The notes below the pieces were generated by a model. It was not told the DNA's origin. It searched no databases and saw only the letters and a program-made list of their open reading frames with translations. Source: Xanthostigma xanthostigma (Eukaryota; Arthropoda; Insecta; Raphidioptera; Raphidiidae). Taken from it: a DNA stretch of 64,000 nt. Position numbers and translations under genes: made by a program. The stretch is taken from positions 37,542,001-37,606,000 of the forward strand of contig OY754466.1 in the NCBI GenBank assembly GCA_963575645.1. Direction: 5' to 3'. This document shows, one piece after another, positions 2,301 through 61,632 of the stretch; the stretch's first letter is position 1; each line of letters starts with the position of its first letter.

Positions 2301-4136
2301 ATGGTGAGAGAATATACACGCAAAACTTTGCAGCAAAAATGGACCCAGCAAGACATGATCGGTGCTATTACTGCCGTAAGAGAAGGCAGAATGAGTTACA
2401 AAGAAGCAGCAGAACATTTTGATGTGCCTTCTACAACATTGTTTCGACGTGCAAAGAAAGAAGGAGAAGTGGACACTGTGTCCGTAAAGCAACTAGGAAG
2501 ATTTAGGAAAGTTTTTACGGAAGCGGAAGAACGTGATTTGGTAAACCACTGTTTATTTATGGAAAGTAGATTTTTTGGATTGAGAATTTCTGATCTGAGA
2601 TATCTAGCGTACCAATTCGCCATGCAAAATAACAAACAAAATTCATTTAATGTTGAAAAAGGAAGGGCTGGAAAGGATTGGATTGCCAGTTTTCTTAAAC
2701 GACATCCAGAATTATCATTAAGAAATCCAGAAAACACTTCACTTGCCAGAGCAGCTGGGTTTAATAAACAAACTGTTAGGCAGTTCTTTGAATTGTTATT
2801 AGAATTGTTTGATAAATACAAATTTCCTGCAAGCAGAGTCTATAATGTAGACGAAACGGGTATCAATACTGTCCCTAATAAGCCTTCAAAAATTATTAGT
2901 TTAAAGGGAAAAAAACAGGTGGGAAATTTAACCTCAGCAGAAAGAGGTGTTACCACAACTGCAGCTGTTTGTTTCAATGCAGCAGGACAGTATATTCCGC
3001 CATTACTAATTTTCCCTAGAGTCCGAGAAAATCTAGAGCTATTAGAAGGCTGCCCACCAGAAACTGTAATGGTCTGCCATCCTTCTGGCTGGATGCAAAC
3101 AGAAATTTTCTACCCAAAATGGTTCCAGCATTTTCTTCGCTATTCAAAACCCTCTGTAGACGATCCCGTCTTGTTAATTCTTGATGGGCATTCAACTCAT
3201 ACAAAAAACGTGGAGCTAATTCACGCTGCCAGAGAAAATCACGTGCATATATTGTGTATTCCTCCCCATACTTCACATCGTCTACAGCCTTTGGATGTGT
3301 CTTTCATGTATCCTTTGTCGACTTTTTACACCCAAGAATGTGAATTATGGATGAGACAAAATCCAGGTAGAGCAATTACGATTCGTCAAGTAGGTAAACT
3401 CTTTGGAAAAAGTTACTTGAAAGCTTCTACGCCACAAAATGCCATTCATGGATTTAAAAAAACCGGAATTTATCCTCCAGATCCAAATATTTTTCCAGAA
3501 GAAGCATTTGCTGCCAGTAAGACAACTGATCGAGATTTTATACCCGAATCTAGAGAAGAACCTACAGATGCTCTCAGTTCAAAAGATACACCAAATGCTA
3601 CCGGCTCAGAGGAATTAACGGTTGCTGCATCAGGTATTTCGAGCATGGACGCAGGTCCTTCATGTTCAGGAATGCAAACACCTCAATCTAAGCCTGCTGT
3701 CAGAAATTATATTAGTCCAAAAGACATCATACCGGTACCCGAAGTAAAACCTACTGGTACGCCTAGAAAGGCTTCAAAAAATCGTGGTAAGACCGCTGTA
3801 CTTACGTCTAGTCCATATTTGAAAGAATTGCAGGATAAAATAGAAACAAAAACTGTTCCGAAGAGAAAGTTGTTTTCAATTTCGTCCACTGTAACTCTAC
3901 CAAAACAAGCTCACAAAAAGGGAAAAGTGAAAAATAAAACACCGGTTCCGAGGCAAGATCCTACTTCCAGCGATGAAGAGGATACGACGTGCATTTTTTG
4001 CAAGGGCGATTTTTTGAAGTCGAAACCAGGAGAAGGCTGGATCACATGTTATAAATGTCAATTTTGGGCGCATGAGGAGTGCTCCGGGTACGACAGTGAT
4101 GATGATAAGCCGTATATATGCGATTTTTGTCTGTAA
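2301..4136 (+). CDS. Pogo/Tigger-family transposase with C-terminal PHD-type zinc finger
   Basis: A 611-residue protein expected to bind the element's ends and catalyse cut-and-paste transposition in the nucleus. Residues about 10-55 form a Psq/CENP-B type helix-turn-helix (MSYKEAAEHFDVPSTTLFRR). Residues about 68-140 fit the CENP-B/Tigger second DNA-binding region. The DDE_1 catalytic domain follows, with the triad readable as D184 (YNVDETG), D295 (LLILDGHSTH) and D332 (LQPLDVSF), a DD36D spacing. A low-complexity linker (about 400-555) is rich in Ser, Thr, Pro and Lys. Residues 558-611 form a C4HC3 finger with C564, C567, C583, C586, H591, C594, C607 and C610. All key residues are present and there are no stops, so it may be functional. 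The start is the first ATG after the putative leader intron. A host-domesticated gene is the alternative, but the TIRs at 1835 and 4396 argue for a live transposon. Confidence 0.93.
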   Translation: MVREYTRKTLQQKWTQQDMIGAITAVREGRMSYKEAAEHFDVPSTTLFRRAKKEGEVDTVSVKQLGRFRKVFTEAEERDLVNHCLFMESRFFGLRISDLRYLAYQFAMQNNKQNSFNVEKGRAGKDWIASFLKRHPELSLRNPENTSLARAAGFNKQTVRQFFELLLELFDKYKFPASRVYNVDETGINTVPNKPSKIISLKGKKQVGNLTSAERGVTTTAAVCFNAAGQYIPPLLIFPRVRENLELLEGCPPETVMVCHPSGWMQTEIFYPKWFQHFLRYSKPSVDDPVLLILDGHSTHTKNVELIHAARENHVHILCIPPHTSHRLQPLDVSFMYPLSTFYTQECELWMRQNPGRAITIRQVGKLFGKSYLKASTPQNAIHGFKKTGIYPPDPNIFPEEAFAASKTTDRDFIPESREEPTDALSSKDTPNATGSEELTVAASGISSMDAGPSCSGMQTPQSKPAVRNYISPKDIIPVPEVKPTGTPRKASKNRGKTAVLTSSPYLKELQDKIETKTVPKRKLFSISSTVTLPKQAHKKGKVKNKTPVPRQDPTSSDEEDTTCIFCKGDFLKSKPGEGWITCYKCQFWAHEECSGYDSDDDKPYICDFCL

Positions 4137-18385: not shown

Positions 18386-19107
18386 TCTATACTAATATAT
18401 AAAGCTGAAGAGTTTGTTTGTTTGTTTGGTTGAACGCGCTAATCTCAGGAACTACTGGTTCAAATTAAAAAAAATTTTTTTTGTTGGATAGCCTATTTAT
18501 TGAGGAAGGCTATAGGCTATATAAAATCACGCTACAACCAATAAGAGCGGAGCATCTATGAAAAATGTTGCAAAATGTATCTCAAAAATAAGCTTCTATT
18601 TAGGTGAAATGCCGTAACTAAATATACCAATATTAGCGTTGTACATTCACAAGCCCGGCTGGCTCAGTCGGTAGAGCATGCGTCTGGAGTTATCAGGGTC
18701 GTGGTTTCGGGCACCACGTTGGGCGAATATATTTTAAATTTTTTTTTATTTTGCTACATTACGTTTTTCTAAGTTTTACATTTAAATTTATTTACGACTA
18801 ACTAAAATTAAATAAATCTAATTAATAGCTCATTTGAAAACTGTTATAACTATAGGTACCTATATAAAAACAATTTTCCTACAAATATTTATTATATTTT
18901 ATTAATTACAGTAATTATTGATTTAAAAGAAATTTATTACTTCAAAAAAGTGTAAAAACTGCTTTTTATCGACAAAAACTTTTGAACGGTAACTCCAATC
19001 ATCATGAAATTTGGACACAACATTCATCTCGGTAAACTAAGATGAACGTGCGTACTCATGTCTCTCCCTCCCCCATTCGTTACTTTGCACCCGGGTGAAA
19101 CCGGGTA
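18386..19107 (+). mobile_element. Non-autonomous Helitron carrying a tRNA-Lys-like core (copy 1)
   Basis: Begins TCTATACTAATATATAAAGC after A, then the GTTTGTTTGTTTGG block and GCGCTAATCTCAGGAACTAC. A 73-base tRNA-like sequence lies at 18653-18725. The 3' hairpin half ACCCGGGTGAAACCGGG is present, but the final CTAG is lost where the sequence changes at 19107. Copies 2-4 (32134, 43569, 59259) keep it. Confidence 0.75.
18653..18725 (+). repeat. tRNA-Lys-like sequence inside Helitron (copy 1)
   Basis: 73 bases with the layout of animal tRNA-Lys(CUU): GCCCGGCTGGCTCAGTCGGT (acceptor and A box), GGGTCGTGGTTTCGGGC (T arm and B box, damaged), and CCACGTTGGGCG (3' acceptor strand). The anticodon arm is scrambled, so this is a tRNA-derived sequence and not a working tRNA gene. 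Confidence 0.7.
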
Positions 19108-19319
19108 CCTATATATATCTTCTTCCAGTTAGGGCGAATAGTAAAATACTAGCCGTCCTGGGAGCATATTCTCAGCTTTTTTTCGTTATAATAGCGAATT
19201 CGTTATAGGTACTGCAAGAACACGTTTTTTGATTAGTCGGTGGAGGAAGGATTTTCAGCGGTAGATCCGTTAAAAAAGCTCAATGCGCATGTGCGCAAAA
19301 CCACGTGTTTTTATTAAAT

Positions 19320-32133: not shown

Positions 32134-32753
32134 TCTATACTAATATATAAAGTTGAAGAGTTTGTTTGTTTGTTTGTTTGAACGCGCTAATCTCAGGAAC
32201 TACTGGTTCAAATTGAATAAATTTTTTTTTGTTGGATAGCCCATTTACCGAGGAAGGCTATAGGCTATATAATATTACGCTACGACGATTAGGAGCGGAG
32301 TTTTAATGAAAAATGTTGCAAAAAGTATCTCAAAAATAAGCTTCTATTCATGTGAAATGCACTAACTAGATATACTCATATTAGTGATGAAAGAAAACAA
32401 CCCCTGGTAGATCAATCGGTAGCGCATGCGACTGTCAATATCAGGGTCGTGGGTTCGAGCCCCACGTTAGGTGAATATATATATATTTTATTTTTTATTT
32501 TTTACATTGCTTTCTTCTAAGGCTTACATTTAAATTTATTTTAATTTTATTTAATTCATTTAAAAAAAATTATTCGTTAAAAAAAGTTTAAATACTGCTC
32601 TTTATCGACAAAAACTTTTGAACGGTAACTCCGATCATCATGAAATTTGGACACAACATTCATCTCGGTAAACTAAGATGAATGTGTGTACTCATGTCCC
32701 TTCCTTCCCCATTCATTCTTTTGCACCCGGGTGAAACCGGGCGGGACCGCTAG
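32134..32753 (+). mobile_element. Non-autonomous Helitron carrying a tRNA-like core (copy 2)
   Basis: Begins TCTATACTAATATATAAAG after A (32133), ends GGGCGGGACCGCTAG before T (32754), with the 3' hairpin CACCCGGGTGAAACCGGGCG. Same family as 18386, 43569 and 59259. 620 bp, no ORF. Confidence 0.82.
32399..32473 (+). repeat. tRNA-like sequence inside Helitron (copy 2)
   Basis: ATCAATCGGTAGCGCATGCG (A box region) is followed by CTGTCAATATCAGGGTCGTG and GGTTCGAGCCCCACGTTAGG. The B box GGTTCGAGCCC is intact. The anticodon loop reads CTGTCAA (GTC at the anticodon place), but the stem is mismatched. Confidence 0.65.
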
Positions 32754-33409
32754 TAATCGATAAAAAGTATAATGTTTGAATAAAATCTACATACTGACAA
32801 TCATTATAAATTTCATTAGAAAACTCTATGGATGAAGATTGAGCCGAATCGGGATCTTGTACTATTATTACACAATCATATAGGTATATACATTTCACAA
32901 CCGATATACTTTCCAAGGCATCTTGAGTTTTCGGTGATTTAGGATTTATGAATCTTCTTCGTTGTTCTATCGTTAGTGAAATCCCAAATCCGTACAGCCT
33001 GTACATTTCAAATCAATGTGCATTGGTTGAAATAACCGTCTGCTGGCATCGTCGATTTGTAGAATATTTTTACATAAAATTTTCCTTGTTTATTATTAAA
33101 GTACTATTTGAAAAATGACCTACGTGAAGCATAACATGACGAACGTTGACCGATTGTATACAGCTGTTAATGTGTTAATACTCTGTGGTTAAAATTCACT
33201 CGGAAATTCAAATGTGAAAAAATTTTACTCTCGAAGAAATGTACAATAGGGCCCCCGTAACCGCGGGGTTGTGTTCAATCGAACATACCTAGCAAAATTT
33301 AAACAAAATAAAATGAATGAAAAATGTTCTGCTGTAAGGATTATTTATTTAAAATTATAATGAAACAAAGTGTACCTACGTGATTAGACTAAACTACCAA
33401 CCACGAAGT
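32754..33409. other. Spacer with an unassigned minus-strand frame
   Basis: A minus frame (33006 down to about 32755) has balanced amino-acid composition but no recognisable domain; its last 15 codons run into the Helitron. It is not called as a gene. Confidence 0.35.
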
Positions 33410-39409: not shown

Positions 39410-40234
39410 TCTTACACTAACAATATATAAAGCTGAAGAGTTTGTTTGTTTGTTTGTTTGATTGAACGCGATAATCTCAGAAACTACTGGTTTGAAATGA
39501 AAAATTATTTTTGTGTCGGATAGTCCATTTATCGAGGAAGGCTATAGGCTATATAATATCACAATAATAGTAGCGGAGCATCAATGAAAAATGTTGCAAA
39601 AACGGGAAAAATTATTCCTTTTGAGAGCTTCCGTTGTGTGCGTTGCGATAGGATAGTTTTTATTAAATACTAGCCGCTATCCGCGGCTACGCCCGCGATT
39701 GAGATGGAAATCGACTTTTGACATGCATATCAGGGGTTGAGGTATTGCACATATTTTGACAAACAATTTTCTTATTTTTCGTAAAAAATTTTTATTTTTT
39801 TTAATAAAAAGTATCCTATGTTACTTCTAATACCTTCAAGAGTGTATGTGCAAAGTTTCATGATGATCGGTTAAGTAGTTTTTGCGTGAAAGCGTAACAA
39901 ACAAACTTACATTCGCATTTATAATATTAATATGATATGATAATAATATGATTTTGTACAAGATTATGGTGTTTTGTAAAAATGAACTGTTTTAGTAACA
40001 TGTAGCGACAAATTATATAATTAATTCAAAGCTATTAGTTCAGAAGCAAAGAAAAAAAACTGTCTTAGTACCAAATAGCGTCATCTGATAGAATTCACTC
40101 AAAGCTATAATTAGTTCAGAAGTAAACCTAGTAGAATTTGCTCAAAGCTATTAGTTCAGATGCCGGGCTGCAAACGAAATATATTTTGCAGAATATGTCT
40201 ATCGCACCCGGGTGAAACCGGGACGGGCCGCTAG
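39410..40234 (+). mobile_element. Non-autonomous Helitron, interrupted
   Basis: Begins TCTTACACTAACAATATATA, followed by GAGTTTGTTTGTTTGTTTG as in the tRNA-bearing family. Its 3' half matches 26583-27077 and ends GGGACGGGCCGCTAG before T. A second Helitron sits at 39670-39935 in the opposite direction. It is a chimera of two family types. Confidence 0.68.
39670..39935 (-). mobile_element. Helitron nested in a Helitron (minus)
   Basis: CTAGCCGCTATCCGCGGCTA at the left (after A) is the reverse of a hairpin plus CTAG end. The right end ATAATATTAATATGA before T is the reverse of a TC-type 5' end. It contains CAAAGTTTCATGATGATCGG. Confidence 0.68.
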
Positions 40235-40737
40235 TATACTAATAAAGAAAATTATAGAAGTTGTGTAGTTTGTAACTACTGTTATCCCCTCAAATTCGAC
40301 ACTGTTTGTAAGTGCTCTATTTCAAACATACACCTGACAAAGAAAATAAACAAAAATCACATTTGCCAATATTAGATAGATGTGTATCCAACGCCAACAA
40401 TAGAAATTGAACAAATTACATATATTATGGCAACAAGTTGAAAGGCGAGACTAACGCGGCCAATTTACAGCGTGTACGTGATTGGCATTCAAAATTTGTT
40501 AAAGCGTAGTTTATCTACAGTTTTAGAGTAGATATCATACGGAAATTTCACCTTTAAACTTTAATCTTTGATAATCTGAGTTTATTTACTTAGCTCATTT
40601 TCAGTTCTTTTCCGTTTCATAGGCCTAGGATTTTGCATTTCTAAAACTATACATTATCTAAAGCTATACATTATATATAGAGGAACAAATAAAAAATACC
40701 TAAGCAAACAAAAAAGTATGATCTAACTGTTAAAAAA
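40235..40737. other. AT-rich spacer
   Basis: No feature recognised. Confidence 0.4.
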
Positions 40738-43568: not shown

Positions 43569-44189
43569 TCTATACTAATATATAAAGCTGTAGAGTTTGT
43601 TTGTTTGTTTGTTTCTTTGAACGCGCTAATCTCAGGAACTACTGGTTCAAATTGAATTTTTTTTTTTGTTGGATAGCCCATTTATCGAGGAAGGCTATAG
43701 GCTATATAAAATCAGGCTACGACCATTAGGAGCGGAGCATTAATGAAAATTGTTGCAAAATGTATCTCAAAAATAAGCTTCTATTCAGGTGAAATGCACT
43801 AACTAAATAAACTCATATTAGCGCTGCCAGAATACAACGCCGGCTAGCTCAATCGGTAGAGCACACGACTGTCAATTTCAGGGTCGTGGGTTTGACCCCT
43901 ACGTTGGGCGAATATATTTTTATTTTTTTTTATTTTCTACATTGCTTTCTTCTAAGGCTTACATTTAAATTTATTTTAATTTTATATAATTAATTAAACA
44001 AAAAATTATTAGTTAAAAAAAGTATAAATACTGCTTTTTATCGACAAAAACTTTCGAACGGTAACTCCGATCATCATGAAATTTGGACACAACATTCATC
44101 TCGGTAAACTAAGATGAATGTGTGTACTCATGTTCCTCCCTTCTCCATTCGTTCTTTTACACCCGGGTGAATCCGGGCGGGACCGCTAG
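43569..44189 (+). mobile_element. Non-autonomous Helitron carrying a tRNA-like core (copy 3)
   Basis: Begins TCTATACTAATATATAAAGC and ends GGGCGGGACCGCTAG before T, with the ACACCCGGGTGAATCCGGGC hairpin. 621 bp. It is closely similar to 32134-32753 through most of its length. Confidence 0.82.
43838..43910 (+). repeat. tRNA-like sequence inside Helitron (copy 3)
   Basis: 73 bases: GCCGGCTAGCTCAATCGGTA gives an intact A box region, then GAGCACACGACTGTCAATTT, GGGTCGTGGGTTTGACCCCT and ACGTTGGGCG. It is one of the two copies closest to tRNA-Lys at the acceptor and D arms. Confidence 0.68.
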
Positions 44190-44371
44190 TCAGGTAATAA
44201 AGCTTTAGACTTAATATTAAAAAGCAACCTAGTACCCAGAACCAATACAAATGTGTGGGTGCGACTTGACAGACAATCAGCTGTCAAATTTTAACTTTGG
44301 ACAAATATAGCGCCAGATTTTATAACTGAATATTCGCGAATGTATAAAAATTGGCATTCGTTACATCACTA

Positions 44372-46115: not shown

Positions 46116-46419
46116 TTATATCCACGAAAAGCACTTAACATTAAAATGGGTATAGTAAGCTATCCTTAAAAGATAGACACATATGCCATCGCGGACATTT
46201 TTCATTGTTTTGTTATATATGTTACCGGCCAAACCCGATTTCAGGACAAACTAGTTTGGCCTAGGCCAAACTAGTTCTACAAACCAGTTTGGCCTAGGCC
46301 AAACTAGTTTGTCCTGAAATCGGGTTTGGCCGGTAACATATATATTATATCTCAAAGGGATTATTTTTACCATCTTCAGCAATCATTGTCATGATTATGA
46401 ATTATACCTATACATATAA
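46116..46419 (+). repeat. 304-bp direct repeat, left copy
   Basis: Starts TTATATCCACGAAAAGCACT and ends ACCTATACATATAA. It is identical by eye to 49151-49454 over all 304 bases, including a 129-bp palindrome. Confidence 0.9.
46215..46343. repeat. 129-bp palindrome, left copy
   Basis: ATATATGTTACCGGCCAAAC and CCGATTTCAGGACAAACTAG are mirrored at the right. The inner part has two copies of AGTTTGGCCTAGGCCAAACT, itself a palindrome, separated by TCTACAA. It can fold into nested cruciforms. Confidence 0.85.
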
Positions 46420-46449
46420 TAGTTCAATCAACGAAGACCAAAAACTGCC

Positions 46450-46704
46450 AAATAGGGGAAATAATTCGTGTAAAAGCGATTTTTGGCATAGTTGTAGGGG
46501 AGGGTGTCTGAAGCAACATACTCAAAGTACTGATGGATGGGGGTGGAGCTAAGGGGTGGGGGGTGGCGTTAAGGTCCCCTTTTAAAGTTTTTCTTATTTA
46601 TCTCGTAAACGGTGGCTCAAAACAAAAAAATTTTTTACTCAAGCAATCTACATAAAATTCTCTACAAAAAAGGTCCTGTACACTTTTTCGGTGGGATCAA
46701 TATT
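46450..46704 (+). repeat. Left long TIR of the nuclease module
   Basis: AAATAGGGGAAATAATTCGT to GGGATCAATATT, about 255 bp, inverted to 48877-49133 with few differences (for example GAGGGTG versus GATGGTG). Confidence 0.85.
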
Positions 46705-46844
46705 TAACGAGATATCAAAGAAGAAAAGTTAATTATGCTCAATTCTCGCGTTTTTACGTATTGGTTCAAACTGCTGGCGCACACAGCACGTTTCTGTAGC
46801 GTCGTCGGCTGCAAGGGACTGGCGCCAGAGGGGGTACAAACTGT

Positions 46845-47482
46845 TATTTTTTAATAACAGTTCCGTTCCGTTCCTGTTCCGCTTACGGAACAGTTCCAAA
46901 AACCTGTTACTTTTTAACAGTTCCAACGTTGGAACCTTGACATTCTCGGAATAGCTAGTAACATGCAACTTATAAAAATTTCAAATTATGAAATGTGTAT
47001 GATTTGTATTTTTTCGTGAATTAATTCTATTATTCAAGTTTAATAATTTAAGGTACCTAATTATTAAAAATATACTTTTACAGAATGTAAGTAACAGTTG
47101 TTCTGCAGAATGCTTATACTATCACAAAATCAAATAATATTATTTCACCACAGTTCAATATTATTCGCGTATGTAATATAAAATTAATAAGCCGTCCAGT
47201 TTTGTCTGAAACTTTGCGACGCATGTTAATGTGATACTAAAATCGACTTTACGTACAATGTACGCTAGGCGTAGGTGAAGAGCATAACTGTTGCAGTTTG
47301 CAAAGTAGGTACAATAATAATTGACAACGGGAACGGAGAATGTTTATTTTATGCAGAAGAACGCCCGTTATGTTATTCGGAACAGTCGAAGCAATGGAAC
47401 AGCCCGGAACAGGTATTTTATTATACTGACAACTGTTCCAATCTGTTCCTCGTTCGAAACCGTTCCAAAATAACTGTTCCTA
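46845..47482. repeat. GTTCC-rich nested insertion (probable)
   Basis: The left edge has TAACAGTTCCGTTCCGTTCC and TTACGGAACAGTTCC; the right edge has GGAACAGCCCGGAACAGG, CAACTGTTCCAATCTGTTCC and AAATAACTGTTCCTAG. Inverted GGAACAG/CTGTTCC motifs at both edges suggest a small DNA element of about 640 bp inserted within the module. Exact termini are unresolved. Confidence 0.45.
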
Positions 47483-47548
47483 GTATTTTGTATCATCTCT
47501 CACTGGCGGCAAGGTCACCGCCAACCAATCACGACGCACACGTGGAGT

Positions 47549-48884
47549 ATGAAATGGAACCCGTCCTCCAACGTTTCTACGATTTGCCATCAAAACATTA
47601 CCTACGTCCAGAAACATTACGGTCCAAACTGTATGGTGGTTTTTGATGGTTACAGTGATGTCAACAGCACTAAACGAGCAGAGCAGAAACGACGAGGTCT
47701 GACTAAAACGTCGGTTGATATTAACTGTAACGAAAATACGATCATCACTGTTAAACAGGAGCATTTCCTCGACAACGAAAAAAATAAAACGAGGCTGATT
47801 CAGTTCCTCACCGAGAAAATGACAGCAGCAGGGATTGAAACAACTGTTGCAACAGGAGATGCTGATGGTACTATTGTCAGATGCGGGTTGGATAAGGCTG
47901 CCATCCATCCAACTGTTGTAATAGTTGGGGAAAATGTCGACTTGATAGTCCTCCTCATGGGATTGGCTCCACCAAATATTAACGTGTTCTTTATGAAACC
48001 AGGGCGTGGAAAGGTGGAAACCAAATTGTTTTCAGTGCGACAACTTCAACAGTTTCCACTTGCCAAGACAATTCTCCTTCTCCACAGCTTCTCCGGATGC
48101 GACACCACCACTGCAATCCATGGAAAGAGCAAAGTGGGAATTGCTAAGCTGTTCACGGATAAACCAGACCTGACCCAAAAAATCTCAGACATTTTTAATG
48201 AGCCTTCAACATCACCTGAGAGTATTGAACAGGCCGGCGAGAAACTGTTTCTGGCCATTTACAAAGCGTCTAACCAGGAACAAAATCTAAATAAATTACG
48301 ATACTCAGCTTTTTTGAGAGCATCAATGAATCCGAAATCAGATCAGGCCACTCTTCGTCCTACCAGAGAAGCTTCAAAGCAGTATTCGTTGAGAGTGTAC
48401 CAACAGGTATCATTAACCACAGAAGTTGTCAAATATATATTAAATATATATTTGAGCTAAATACTTACGTTGATCTTATTACATCTTTTACAGATACAAC
48501 AATGGCTCAGCAAGCCCCTACCACCTACTCAATGGGGCTGGGCCAGAAGAGACGATGGCATTAAAGTCGGTGACAACAAACGATCCTGTGGCACCTGACT
48601 CCATACTCAACAGCATATTTTGCCGATGTAGAACTGGGTGTGGGGTGCGATGCGGCTGCCGGAAAGCAGGAATTGCCCGCTCCAGTGTTTGCGGGGTATG
48701 CTCCAGCTCATGCACTAACGGAGCCCCAATCGAAAACACCGTCGACGATGATGTTGATGATGATATTATGTTAGATTTAGAAGATAATTGGAATTTTTTT
48801 AATACATGCCATACCTACTCAAAGAACTGTATCTTTATTTTATTATTGATTATCTTCTTTCCTTCACGGGTCATTCAATATTGA
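47549..48884 (+). pseudogene. FEN1/XPG (PIN-like) nuclease with cysteine-rich C-terminus, frameshifted
   Basis: Exon 1 (47549-48406) encodes 286 codons. Conserved acidic motifs follow the order of the FEN1/XPG fold: VVFDGY (D33), TGDADGTIV (D104, D106), VGENVDLIVLL (E128, N129, D131) and HSFSGCDTTTA (D185). The usual VG(E/D)DTDLL has become GENVDL, so one metal-binding acid is Asn. A GT-AG intron of 87 bases (48407-48493, phase 0) joins RVYQQ to IQQWLSKPLPPTQWGWARRD. Near 48550 the frame must shift by one base to continue as APDSILNSIFCRCRTGCG, VRCGCRKAG and an acidic VDDDVDDDIMLDLE tail. The frame is open upstream of the ATG for at least 20 codons, so this ATG is not the ancestral start; the N-terminus is missing. 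Proteins of this layout are multi-copy and uncharacterised in many invertebrates (recalled, not searched). Substrate and partner are unknown. Confidence 0.72.
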
Positions 48885-49133
48885 TCCCACCGAAAAAGTG
48901 TACAGGACCTTTTTTGTAGAGAATTTTATGTAGATTGCTTGAGTAAAAAAATTTTTGTGTTATGAGCCACCGTTTACGAGATATATAAGAAAAACTTTAA
49001 AAGGGGACCTTAACGCCACCCCCTACCCCTTAGCTCCACCCCCATCCATCAGTACTTTGAGTATGTTGCTTCAGACACCATCCCCTACAACTATGCCAAA
49101 AATCGCTTTTACACGAATTATTTCCCCTATTTT
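48877..49133 (-). repeat. Right long TIR of the nuclease module
   Basis: AATATTGATCCCACCGAAAA to ATTTCCCCTATTT, the inverted partner of 46450-46704. The pseudogene's terminal codons overlap its first bases. Confidence 0.85.
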
Positions 49134-49150
49134 TGCTTCTTTGAGTGAGC

Positions 49151-49454
49151 TTATATCCACGAAAAGCACTTAACATTAAAATGGGTATAGTAAGCTATCC
49201 TTAAAAGATAGACACATATGCCATCGCGGACATTTTTCATTGTTTTGTTATATATGTTACCGGCCAAACCCGATTTCAGGACAAACTAGTTTGGCCTAGG
49301 CCAAACTAGTTCTACAAACCAGTTTGGCCTAGGCCAAACTAGTTTGTCCTGAAATCGGGTTTGGCCGGTAACATATATATTATATCTCAAAGGGATTATT
49401 TTTACCATCTTCAGCAATCATTGTCATGATTATGAATTATACCTATACATATAA
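49151..49454 (+). repeat. 304-bp direct repeat, right copy
   Basis: Same sequence and orientation as 46116-46419, offset 3035 bases. It continues (ACCTTTCTCTTGAA) into the rest of the Helitron-type host repeat, as the left copy continues outward on the other side. Confidence 0.9.
49250..49378. repeat. 129-bp palindrome, right copy
   Basis: Same palindrome as 46215-46343, with no difference seen by eye. Confidence 0.85.
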
Positions 49455-49469
49455 ACCTTTCTCTTGAAT

Positions 49470-49655
49470 TAAATAAAATTGTCGACCAATTTTTCTCAGA
49501 CCAATATATTGACAAAAAATAAAAAAATAACAAATCAATATAACATAAGATGACGTTTCGATCCGGATTTTTTTATTTTTTGTCAATATATTGGTCTGAG
49601 AAAAATTGGTCGACAATTTTATTTATTTGAAGAGTTCTATTCAGACGTTTATCAA
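49470..49655. repeat. Penelope-like inverted repeat inserted in the Helitron-type repeat
   Basis: AAATAAAATTGTCGACCAAT and TTTTCTCAGACCAATATATT are inverted to AATATATTGGTCTGAGAAAA and TTGTCTACAAT-like sequence at the right (GGTCGACAATTTTATTTATT). A partial hammerhead core (GACGTTTCGATCCGGATTTT, reverse) lies inside. CTTTCTCTTGAAT stands on both sides, like a 13-bp target duplication. Confidence 0.6.
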
Positions 49656-59258: not shown

Positions 59259-59752
59259 TCTATACTAATAAAGCTGAAGAGTTTGTTTGTTTGAACGCGC
59301 TAATCTCAGGAACTACTGGTTCAAATTGAAAAAAAAAATTTGTTGGATAGTCCATTTATCAAGGAAGTCCATAGGCTATTATATAAAATCACGCTACGAC
59401 CATTAGGAGCGAAGCATTAATGAAAAATGTTGCAAAATGTATCTCAAAAATAAGCTTCTATTCAGGTGAAATACACTAACTAAATATACTCATATTATAG
59501 CGTTGAAAGTACACAACCTCAGATAGCTCAATCGGTAGATCATGCGACTGTCAATATCAGGGTCGTGGGTTTGAGCCCCACGTTGGGCAAATATATTTTT
59601 ATTTTTTTTTATTTTCTACATTGCTTTCTTCTAAGGCTTACATTCAAATTAATTTTAATTTTATTTAATTAATTAAAAAAAATTAGTGTACTCATGTTCT
59701 CCCTTCCCCATTCGTTCTTTTACACCCGGGTGAACACGGACGGGACCTCTAG
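59259..59752 (+). mobile_element. Non-autonomous Helitron carrying a tRNA-like core (copy 4)
   Basis: Begins TCTATACTAATAAAGCTGAA after A and ends GGACGGGACCTCTAG before T. It is shorter than copies 2 and 3 because about 100 bp before the 3' hairpin (the CGACAAAAACTTTTGAACGG block) is missing. Confidence 0.78.
59516..59588 (+). repeat. tRNA-like sequence inside Helitron (copy 4)
   Basis: ATAGCTCAATCGGTAGATCA, TGCGACTGTCAATATCAGGG and TCGTGGGTTTGAGCCCCACG followed by TTGGGC. The A and B box regions are recognisable. The acceptor stem is broken at its 5' side (CCTCAGA). Confidence 0.65.
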
Positions 59753-61632
59753 TTATATATAAAAAATATGTTTCAATATCTAAAAGAACGCGATCAACGC
59801 GGTTATAAACCACTATAGTGCGTAAATATTTGTAATGCAAACAATATACAACCTGTTCAAAAGAATCAGATGTCACCTTTTGTTTTGAAACAAAACAATA
59901 TCAAGAGATAGAAGTCGAAAGATAAACAGAAGCAAGAAGGTTTCTTGTACGGATGTGTGAACGGAAGTTTAATGGGATGTTCAACTTAATAAACAGGATG
60001 TCATTAATAAAGTAAATTTAGAAAAAATGCTAAACATTTTTCATATTTTTTTGGCACCACATGAATGAATATATTACACAATGTTAGTAGTATAGGTAGT
60101 TGTAATTGTAGGAATGCCTACTATCAAAATATGAATATTGTATAAAAAGGTATTTTTATTGAACTGACTTTAAAAAAACGCCTTTTAAAAGGATAACATA
60201 AGCTCTCTGTTTGACGATCATCTATATTTAATTAGAAGTCGGCGCATTTATCTTTCTGTTATATTCTGTAAAACGAACGGAATTGTATATCCGTTTATAA
60301 CCGATGCCGATGATGATCACTGATCCCGAGAGTGAAGTACTATTTGCTAACCTTCAAAGTGCTAAAAAAAATTATTATTAATTTGATGCTTATAATTTTC
60401 GGTTGATTAGAGGAGAATTTAAAAGTGAGCAATAACTAGATAAAATGTATAGCTATTTTGGCCTGGCAATCACTGTTTTTAGAGTTTTTTTTTGTTACTA
60501 CTTGTAATTTTTATGATCTCAAAGATATAGCAATTATTGGCTAATGTTCCTCTAGTTAGAACATTTAAGTTACCACAGAAAAAAATGTTAACTCATATTT
60601 CTTCATAATAAAAGCTATTTTGGAAAAAAAACCCTGTCAATTCCTTAAGCGGACAAAAACTATATCGTTTCCCCTATATGACAATGATAAATGCTTAGTT
60701 GTACTAATGTGCTGACAGTGATTGCAGCACAGAGCCGATCCAAATAACACGCTATAATTTGTGAGTCAGGAGTTGTACTGTGTAAACCGGGGATATCTGA
60801 CGATGACGTTTCATGTGCTGTTTAGGAGCGCAAAACAGCATCTGAGCGCAAGTAAATCTGCCACACAGAACATACACAAGTTTTGTAGTCTGCCAGGGGT
60901 TGTTAAACTTTAGCGTTAATTATTATTACACTATTTTCTAACAATTAATATTGGTCAAATATGGAAAATATAATTCTTCCTAAAATTATGACGTACCGAA
61001 GATTTTGGTTGTTCTGCAGCTCCGCAGTGCTCATTAAAGAACCGTCACTGAACGGAAGATATCCTAACAAATTGTTTAAAATCTAGTGTTTAAGGTTAAA
61101 TAAAGTTTCGATTTCAGTATGTAAGCAAAACGTTCATAATTAGTTAAATATAGAGAAAACATAAATATCCACTTACTTATAATAAATGCCGCCAATTTAT
61201 TTTGTGAGAAAATCGTCTGTAATGTTACTCTAAACTACTTAGATATACATATATATATATATATTATAAAAGTAGTTTACCCTTTGAAATTGGCATGCGT
61301 GATTGATTCTATGCCAAATTCAAGAGAAAAAGAGAAAGATATATTACGAGAGAGACAATTAAAGGTGTATCTAGACTGAATTTATTGGTTGAACCTGCAC
61401 ATATTCTATGGAATTGCAACGAATTATCGTCACATTTTTTAAATGTTCGAAGCTACAGCATATGCGTTAGCAACGGTCAGACAACGTTCAAGAACTACTC
61501 CTAAGGTGATTTCTTCCGCGAACTGAGATAGCGCAAATTCAGAAGAATAAATTTGCTCCTAGACACATTAAGTATGTGATTTAGGAGTTCGCTATCGCAG
61601 TATGTTTACTTATCAATTATTTCATCTCCTTA
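59753..61632. other. Long AT-rich spacer
   Basis: About 1.9 kb without a recognised gene or repeat end. A small inverted pair (GCGAACTGAGATAGCGC near 61518 and GAGTTCGCTATCGC near 61586) is present. Confidence 0.45.

Follow-up and report, generated by a model that had tools for sequence, protein, structure and literature searches.

Long direct duplications of host DNA accompany a two-base-short right end in an AcademX-like transposon family of Xanthostigma xanthostigma

The length of a target duplication is usually taken as a near-fixed signature of the transposase that made it. Here we describe a family of putative AcademX-like DNA transposons in Xanthostigma xanthostigma (Raphidioptera), starting from one copy in a stretch of 64,000 nucleotides (assembly GCA_963575645.1, contig OY754466.1, positions 37,542,001 to 37,606,000 of the forward strand; hereafter the window), where the element lies between two copies of a host segment hundreds of bases long. 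Only a minority of copies have such a long duplication; their right end is defective, and the transposon is otherwise an ordinary one. At three loci, an element with an intact left end and a right end that has lost its terminal TA abuts an identical or near-identical direct duplication of host DNA, an arrangement absent from the ordinary copies examined. Judging from these sequences, we lean towards a reading in which the two ends were probably not joined in concert at the window locus and the two others, with the left end attached by the transposase and the right by the cell itself.

The geometry at the window locus is simple. When positions 46116-46419 are aligned with 49151-49454, all 304 bases are identical, the match extends 0 bases beyond either edge, and both copies directly adjoin the inverted-repeat element at 46420-49150. 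Copies of the family run from TAGTTCAATC to TAGCTCACTC, that is TAG...CTA, with terminal inverted repeats (TIRs) of roughly 280-290 bp. The right end in the window instead reads GAGC followed at once by TTATATCC, without the TA.

Ordinary copies of the family look quite different at their borders. The genome searched comprises 623 Mb in 28 contigs, the window being C3:37542001-37606000, and exact-pattern searches of it recovered at least 64 left and 65 right family ends. The 29 other loci compared are about 95-99% identical to the window element over its first 1.8 kb, a few of them with insertions or rearrangements. Both ends were read in 31 copies besides the window's, and their flanks were compared over 1.5 kb (20 copies) or up to 0.6 kb (11 copies). 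The target duplication is an exact 3-bp repeat in 29 of these 31, a 4-bp repeat in one (L047) and missing in one (L039); shuffled pairs, which served as the control for the 3-bp duplications, give 2.8 matches on average. TA follows the right end in 31 of 31, and it belongs to the element, since flank comparison puts the 3-bp duplication outside TAG...CTA. A TA target duplication, the Tc1/mariner feature, was considered for the family and ruled out: empty sites in the satellite fit best without both TAs, and the 3-bp repeats of the 29 copies lie outside the TAs. No long repeat abuts the element in 28 of the 31 copies. The remaining three (L029, L036 and L039) sit in a 165-bp tandem satellite, which has thus received at least three insertions of the family, and because their flanks are that satellite, their flank similarity is uninformative. 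L031 has a 161-bp flank match at 83%, at a distance of over 1.3 kb on either side. A 32nd copy, L028 with L100 (C10:15187703-15194983), reaches 7281 bp through nested insertions and has the duplication AAT; among the other insertions that it carries is one with a reverse-transcriptase frame (RVT_1). Two related families, with termini TAGTGCAGGC and TAGTACAGTC, are represented by elements on contigs C4 and C10 that likewise read TAG...CTA and have 3-bp duplications, CAT and GAG (one copy each), with no long abutting repeat in the flank stretches compared.

Right ends without the TA are rare, and each comes with a long duplication. We took a census of right ends as genome-wide exact matches to TTTGCTTCTTTGAGTGRRC (n=65). 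Three of them lack the TA: the window's, which continues with TT, and two others, which continue with a non-T base. The other 62, by subtraction, have it. One of the two additional cases (C10:8840225, minus strand) is a 2735-bp element, 96.7% identical to the window's, with a 313-bp direct repeat in which 312 bases are identical. The second (C5:19370590-19376221, G000) measures 5632 bp and lies between direct repeats of 67 bp, identical at 67 of 67 positions. In both, the repeat adjoins a complete left TAG and a right GAGC, as in the window. An abutting long duplication outside satellites was accordingly seen in 3/3 copies without the right TA vs 0/31 with it (p = 1.7e-4), or 0/28 when the three satellite copies are set aside (p = 2.2e-4). 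If the window, which prompted the test, is left out, the association is 2/2 vs 0/31 (p = 1.9e-3) or vs 0/28 (p = 2.3e-3). Because all three TA-less copies have long abutting direct repeats, we conclude that giant duplication is a recurrent event associated with loss of the right-end TA.

A single break immediately after GAGC, which costs the element exactly two bases, is compatible with all three right ends; with 1-bp microhomology allowed, the window could alternatively have lost one base and the C5 copy three. The left end is complete in each, and no left end without TA was found in the genome by exact patterns, all 64 exact left ends beginning with TAG (the C5 copy, one base different, falls outside the 64). 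The host trinucleotides at the three left ends are TAA, TTG and TTA, all of which are found among the normal duplications. The duplicated segments are related neither to one another nor to the element, and the window element is 3.3% different from the C10 one, so the three events look independent. A unique accident at the window locus, which 31 copies without an abutting long repeat outside satellites had suggested, is ruled out by the two further cases in the census. Insertion into a pre-existing tandem duplication is disfavoured: the right end should then be complete and an identical trinucleotide should flank the element on either side, and neither is seen.

That the 304 bases are host DNA follows from related copies of the host sequence. 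A query across the left junction revealed a very high-copy host repeat (2027 first-look candidates, 40 of them scored), and ten paralogues were examined: L024, together with the nine best hits to that query (L076-L084). The host match crosses the left edge of the segment in 10 of 10, and the 304 bases are therefore duplicated host DNA. The right edge is crossed by BLAST in two of the ten (L024 and L078), and six of the ten show its sequence on visual inspection of the alignment. Right-flank sequence lies within a few hundred bases in six paralogues (L024, L076, L078, L082, L083 and L084), so that no 2.7-kb element can lie between. Each 304-bp copy contains a 131-bp near-perfect palindrome, which is a separate short repeat; because it matches many further places in the genome and is missing from the aligned paralogues, it was present before the duplication. 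A second hairpin, with 68-bp arms, lies just right of the right repeat (window 49461-49634) and does not occur in host paralogue L024.

An earlier examination of the letters of the window (the sequence-only reading) had described identical direct repeats with the geometry of a giant target duplication, and had tentatively linked the insertion to the palindrome. The identity of the repeats is confirmed in full by alignment. The geometry stands too, and its presence at two further, unrelated loci of the family (313 and 67 bp) means that it cannot be put down to a single chance rearrangement. What does not stand is the long duplication as the normal insertion mode of the family, because 29 of the 31 other copies have a 3-bp duplication. 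Ordinary short duplications, or none, at the other copies would have counted against the proposal, and these are mostly what flank comparison found, yet two more long cases came to light. The palindrome is not needed: the longest exact inverted match is 8 bases in the 313-bp duplication and 10 bases in the 67-bp one, vs 59 in the window, so neither of the other two duplications contains a palindrome.

The limits and make-up of the window element were also set by comparison with its relatives (Table 1). The sequence-only reading had delimited a module by 255-bp TIRs and had assigned it a nuclease as its only recognisable gene. The inverted repeats are real, being 97% complementary in two blocks (46450-46710 with 48871-49132), but the element that they terminate is larger. 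In a search with 46420-46720, all 40 scored relatives (of 134 candidates, the window's own copy included) start at 46420, which rules out the candidate of a 3-bp duplication, TGC, outside an inner TIR, with the module set between two older tandem repeats. Nor is this a nuclease-only module. Both ends of the module match the C5 copy, and so, in two frames, does the part that encodes the nuclease-like end of the protein; we read the module as an internally deleted, non-autonomous derivative of that 5632-bp copy with its open reading frame (ORF) of 1444 amino acids (aa).

Table 1. Features of the transposon insertion and its flanks (window coordinates).
Feature	Position	Strand	Evidence or remark
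Left copy of duplicated host segment, 304 bp	46116..46419	+	304/304 match to 49151-49454; joined to left flank in 10/10 host paralogues
131-bp palindromic short repeat in left copy (older passenger)	46214..46344	.	not in aligned host paralogues
Transposon copy, 2731 bp, TAGTTCAATC...GAGTGAGC	46420..49150	+	family alignment; left terminus complete, right terminal TA lost
Left terminal inverted repeat	46420..46710	+	homology to right TIR strongest at 46450-46710
Nuclease-like ORF fragment, 286 aa	47549..48406	+	matches part of C-terminal region (from about residue 1061) of the C5 copy's 1444-aa protein
Cysteine-rich C-terminal piece, other frame	48555..48884	+	region within one ORF in the C5 copy
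Right terminal inverted repeat	48871..49150	-	
Right copy of duplicated host segment, 304 bp	49151..49454	+	directly after GAGC; right edge joined to right flank in paralogues L024, L078
Same 131-bp palindromic repeat in right copy	49249..49379	.	

The C5 copy has a single open frame, the last part of which is the nuclease-like stretch. A protein search with this 1444-aa frame, in which 32 of 773 candidates were scored and counts are lower bounds, gave at least one full-length copy of the window family, the C5 copy, which is the only one among the scored hits and is itself a long-duplication case. At least three further long related frames were found at 39-41% identity (C4 and C10 without stops, C8 with one stop), along with at least three partial related frames at 39-49% identity. 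Short copies among the scored hits, mostly at 85-95% identity, keep residues from about 1061 to 1444. AcademX elements encode a nuclease, of XPG type, besides an Academ DDE transposase. The description of the gene as a FEN1/XPG-like nuclease holds in part: a nuclease-like ORF is present, but searches of Pfam and PDB up to E = 10 gave no XPG/FEN1 match, and the resemblance was read by eye from acidic motifs in P0003/P0004. No Pfam model matched the 1444-aa ORF of the C5 copy, an Rfam search gave 0 matches, and no relatives of the element were found in the viral_contigs and genome_contigs collections. A single-sequence AlphaFold model of the nuclease-like fragment reached a predicted local distance difference test (pLDDT) of 37.7, which makes it useless as fold evidence. 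Passages of PMC10045372 describe AcademX elements with 3-4 bp target duplications and an encoded nuclease, and on that basis we file the element as AcademX-like. The family would then be an AcademX-like cut-and-paste DNA transposon that normally makes a 3-bp target duplication.

A complete left end, a right end short of two bases and a duplication of variable length are what would be expected if the transposase joined the left end and the cell joined the right. The duplication itself would mean that the host end joined to the right end overlapped the left flank, by way of copying over 67-313 nucleotides (nt). In such a sequence of events, the transposase would first join the left end to the target in the normal way, in the window directly after ...ATATAA, while the right end, left unjoined, would lose its last two bases, these being a single-stranded overhang from a cut 2 nt inside the element. 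Second-strand cleavage about two nucleotides within the end is a feature of some DDE transposons, so that trimming an unjoined end of this kind would remove exactly TA. The right-hand host end could then be extended leftwards by copying host DNA, 304 nt of it at the window, whether by strand displacement from a nick or by invasion of an uninterrupted chromatid. Cellular end joining would finally tie GAGC to the extended host end, with 0-1 bp of microhomology, to give left flank, host segment, element, host segment and right flank in that order. The order of these events, the overhang and the repair route are what we infer from the finished product. One-end integration leaves one end correct, the other imprecise and the target rearranged, and this combination is found at all three loci. 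Retroviruses offer a precedent: uncoordinated joining of their ends leads to target duplications and deletions of various lengths, according to parts of PMC2857682, and host enzymes are able to insert the second end of retroviral DNA, according to parts of PMC7912079.

Several points weigh against uncoordinated one-end integration. A normal insertion followed by later events could lead to the same product. Deletions would be expected as well, and none were seen in a search that is able to find only right ends intact up to GAGC. For the left-end site in the window, the target-preference percentile depends on the width chosen and drops from 0.95 to 0.46; known sites, scored by leave-one-out at those widths, have means of 0.64 to 0.86. 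The bias towards the right end, 3/65 vs 0/64, may be chance, being not significant alone (one-sided p about 0.12, by hand arithmetic). L039, an ordinary-looking satellite copy, has no target duplication at all, and the 2-nt overhang of the excised end is borrowed from other DDE transposons. The known long-duplication cases are three only, and both ends were read in 31 of the 62 TA-ended copies of the exact list (30 of the 31 pairs, plus the 7281-bp copy).

The most serious competitor, which we consider unlikely on balance, places the damage after a normal insertion. The element would have entered with a 3-bp duplication (TAA at the window), and the transposase would later have cut it at the right end only. 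By copying from an element-free homologue or sister, as in aborted synthesis-dependent strand annealing, the host end would have grown by 67-313 nt before end joining linked it to the cut right end. This yields the same product, loss of TA included, and the left-end trinucleotides at the three loci, all known from normal duplications, agree with it. According to parts of PMC3330096, excision of the Drosophila P element can be followed by repair synthesis that aborts and then by end joining. Against this, reasoning suggests that an element-free template would be required at three loci, and two separate events at each of them.

It is possible that the nuclease-like part of the protein takes part in the long duplication. 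A stronger form of this idea, which strikes us as improbable, would have AcademX-like transposons possess a built-in second insertion mode: after transfer of one end, the element's own flap-type nuclease would cut the displaced target strand far off, and the other end, trimmed by the exact 2-nt overhang, would be joined there. Long duplications would then be a regular minor product of the enzyme rather than accidents of repair.

Capture of an excised element as filler seems quite improbable. Here the element would be caught at a host break with overlapping filled-in ends, formed by distant nicks on opposite strands, and both of its ends would be end-joined. Paired nicks with overhangs do give tandem duplications in mammalian cells, as described in part of PMC8355091, and the window site, when large widths are used, does not score highly for target preference. 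Such capture predicts equal damage at both ends, whereas the left end is complete in 3/3 cases and in 64/64 exact left ends. Very improbable, in our judgement, are a crossover between copies a few hundred bp apart on homologues and the insertion of the two ends into two sister chromatids. Either would, by established genetics, give host segment, element and host segment, but both predict a complete right TA, which is lost at all three loci, and the right side at C5 begins with CGGGCG, unlike the AT-rich targets. An assembly artefact, with two haplotype pieces joined and their overlap left uncollapsed, is hardly credible, given the same structure at three unlinked loci, the same element end base each time and a window sequence with zero N.

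The window also contains other mobile elements or candidates for them. An open 611-aa frame at 2301-4136 (+) has Pfam matches to DDE_1, a psq-type HTH and a PHD finger (the last below the Pfam cut-off), and appears to encode an intact pogo/Tigger-like transposase. Five related repeats with a CACCCGGGTG-type hairpin lie at about 19064-19129, 32700-32765, 40181-40246, 44136-44201 and 59699-59764, and in four of the five the hairpin is followed by a ...CTAGT end. We take these repeats to be possible Helitron 3' ends.

Among the copies examined, then, one family has two outcomes, a target duplication of 3-4 bp or one of 67-313 bp, which match a right terminus with or without its last two bases. 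On the reading of uncoordinated one-end integration, these copies would provide evidence, from the sequence of a natural genome, of failed concerted end joining by a eukaryotic DNA transposon, and would hint at a second-strand cut 2 nt inside the end. They suggest that transposon insertion can bring with it a direct duplication of hundreds of host bases, and annotation that requires a short target duplication will overlook such copies. The idea is open to assay, because the genome contains a copy whose 1444-aa frame is open.

Comparison with known systems places the family close to AcademX in its ordinary behaviour. Terminal inverted repeats are present, a 3-4 bp duplication occurs in 30 of the 31 family copies (the window copy itself being without it) and in the related families, and there is one long ORF with a nuclease-like C-terminal part, a likeness that rests on motifs read by eye. 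The family departs from AcademX in the 3 of 65 exact right ends that are 2 bp short and have duplications of 67-313 bp. In IS481EU, too, several target-duplication lengths occur in one family, about 4, 15 and 25 bp according to part of PMC10045372; these lengths are discrete and no greater than about 25 bp, whereas the lengths seen here are 3-4 bp or 67-313 bp, the longer being tied to a defective terminus. Tandem duplication through paired nicks or CST-Pol alpha fill-in offers a likeness of another kind, in that overlapping broken ends are filled and end-joined to give direct duplications, although the cases in the relevant part of PMC8355091 concern nickase-made breaks and not transposons. 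There is also a likeness to uncoordinated retroviral integration, in which one end is joined correctly and the other by way of host repair, with duplications and deletions that vary in length (parts of PMC2857682 and PMC7912079). The retroviral cases in those sources come from mutant viruses, drug treatment or altered conditions, while those described here are standing genomic copies of a DNA transposon, and the three known cases all involve the same end, 2 bp short each time, with duplications only so far.

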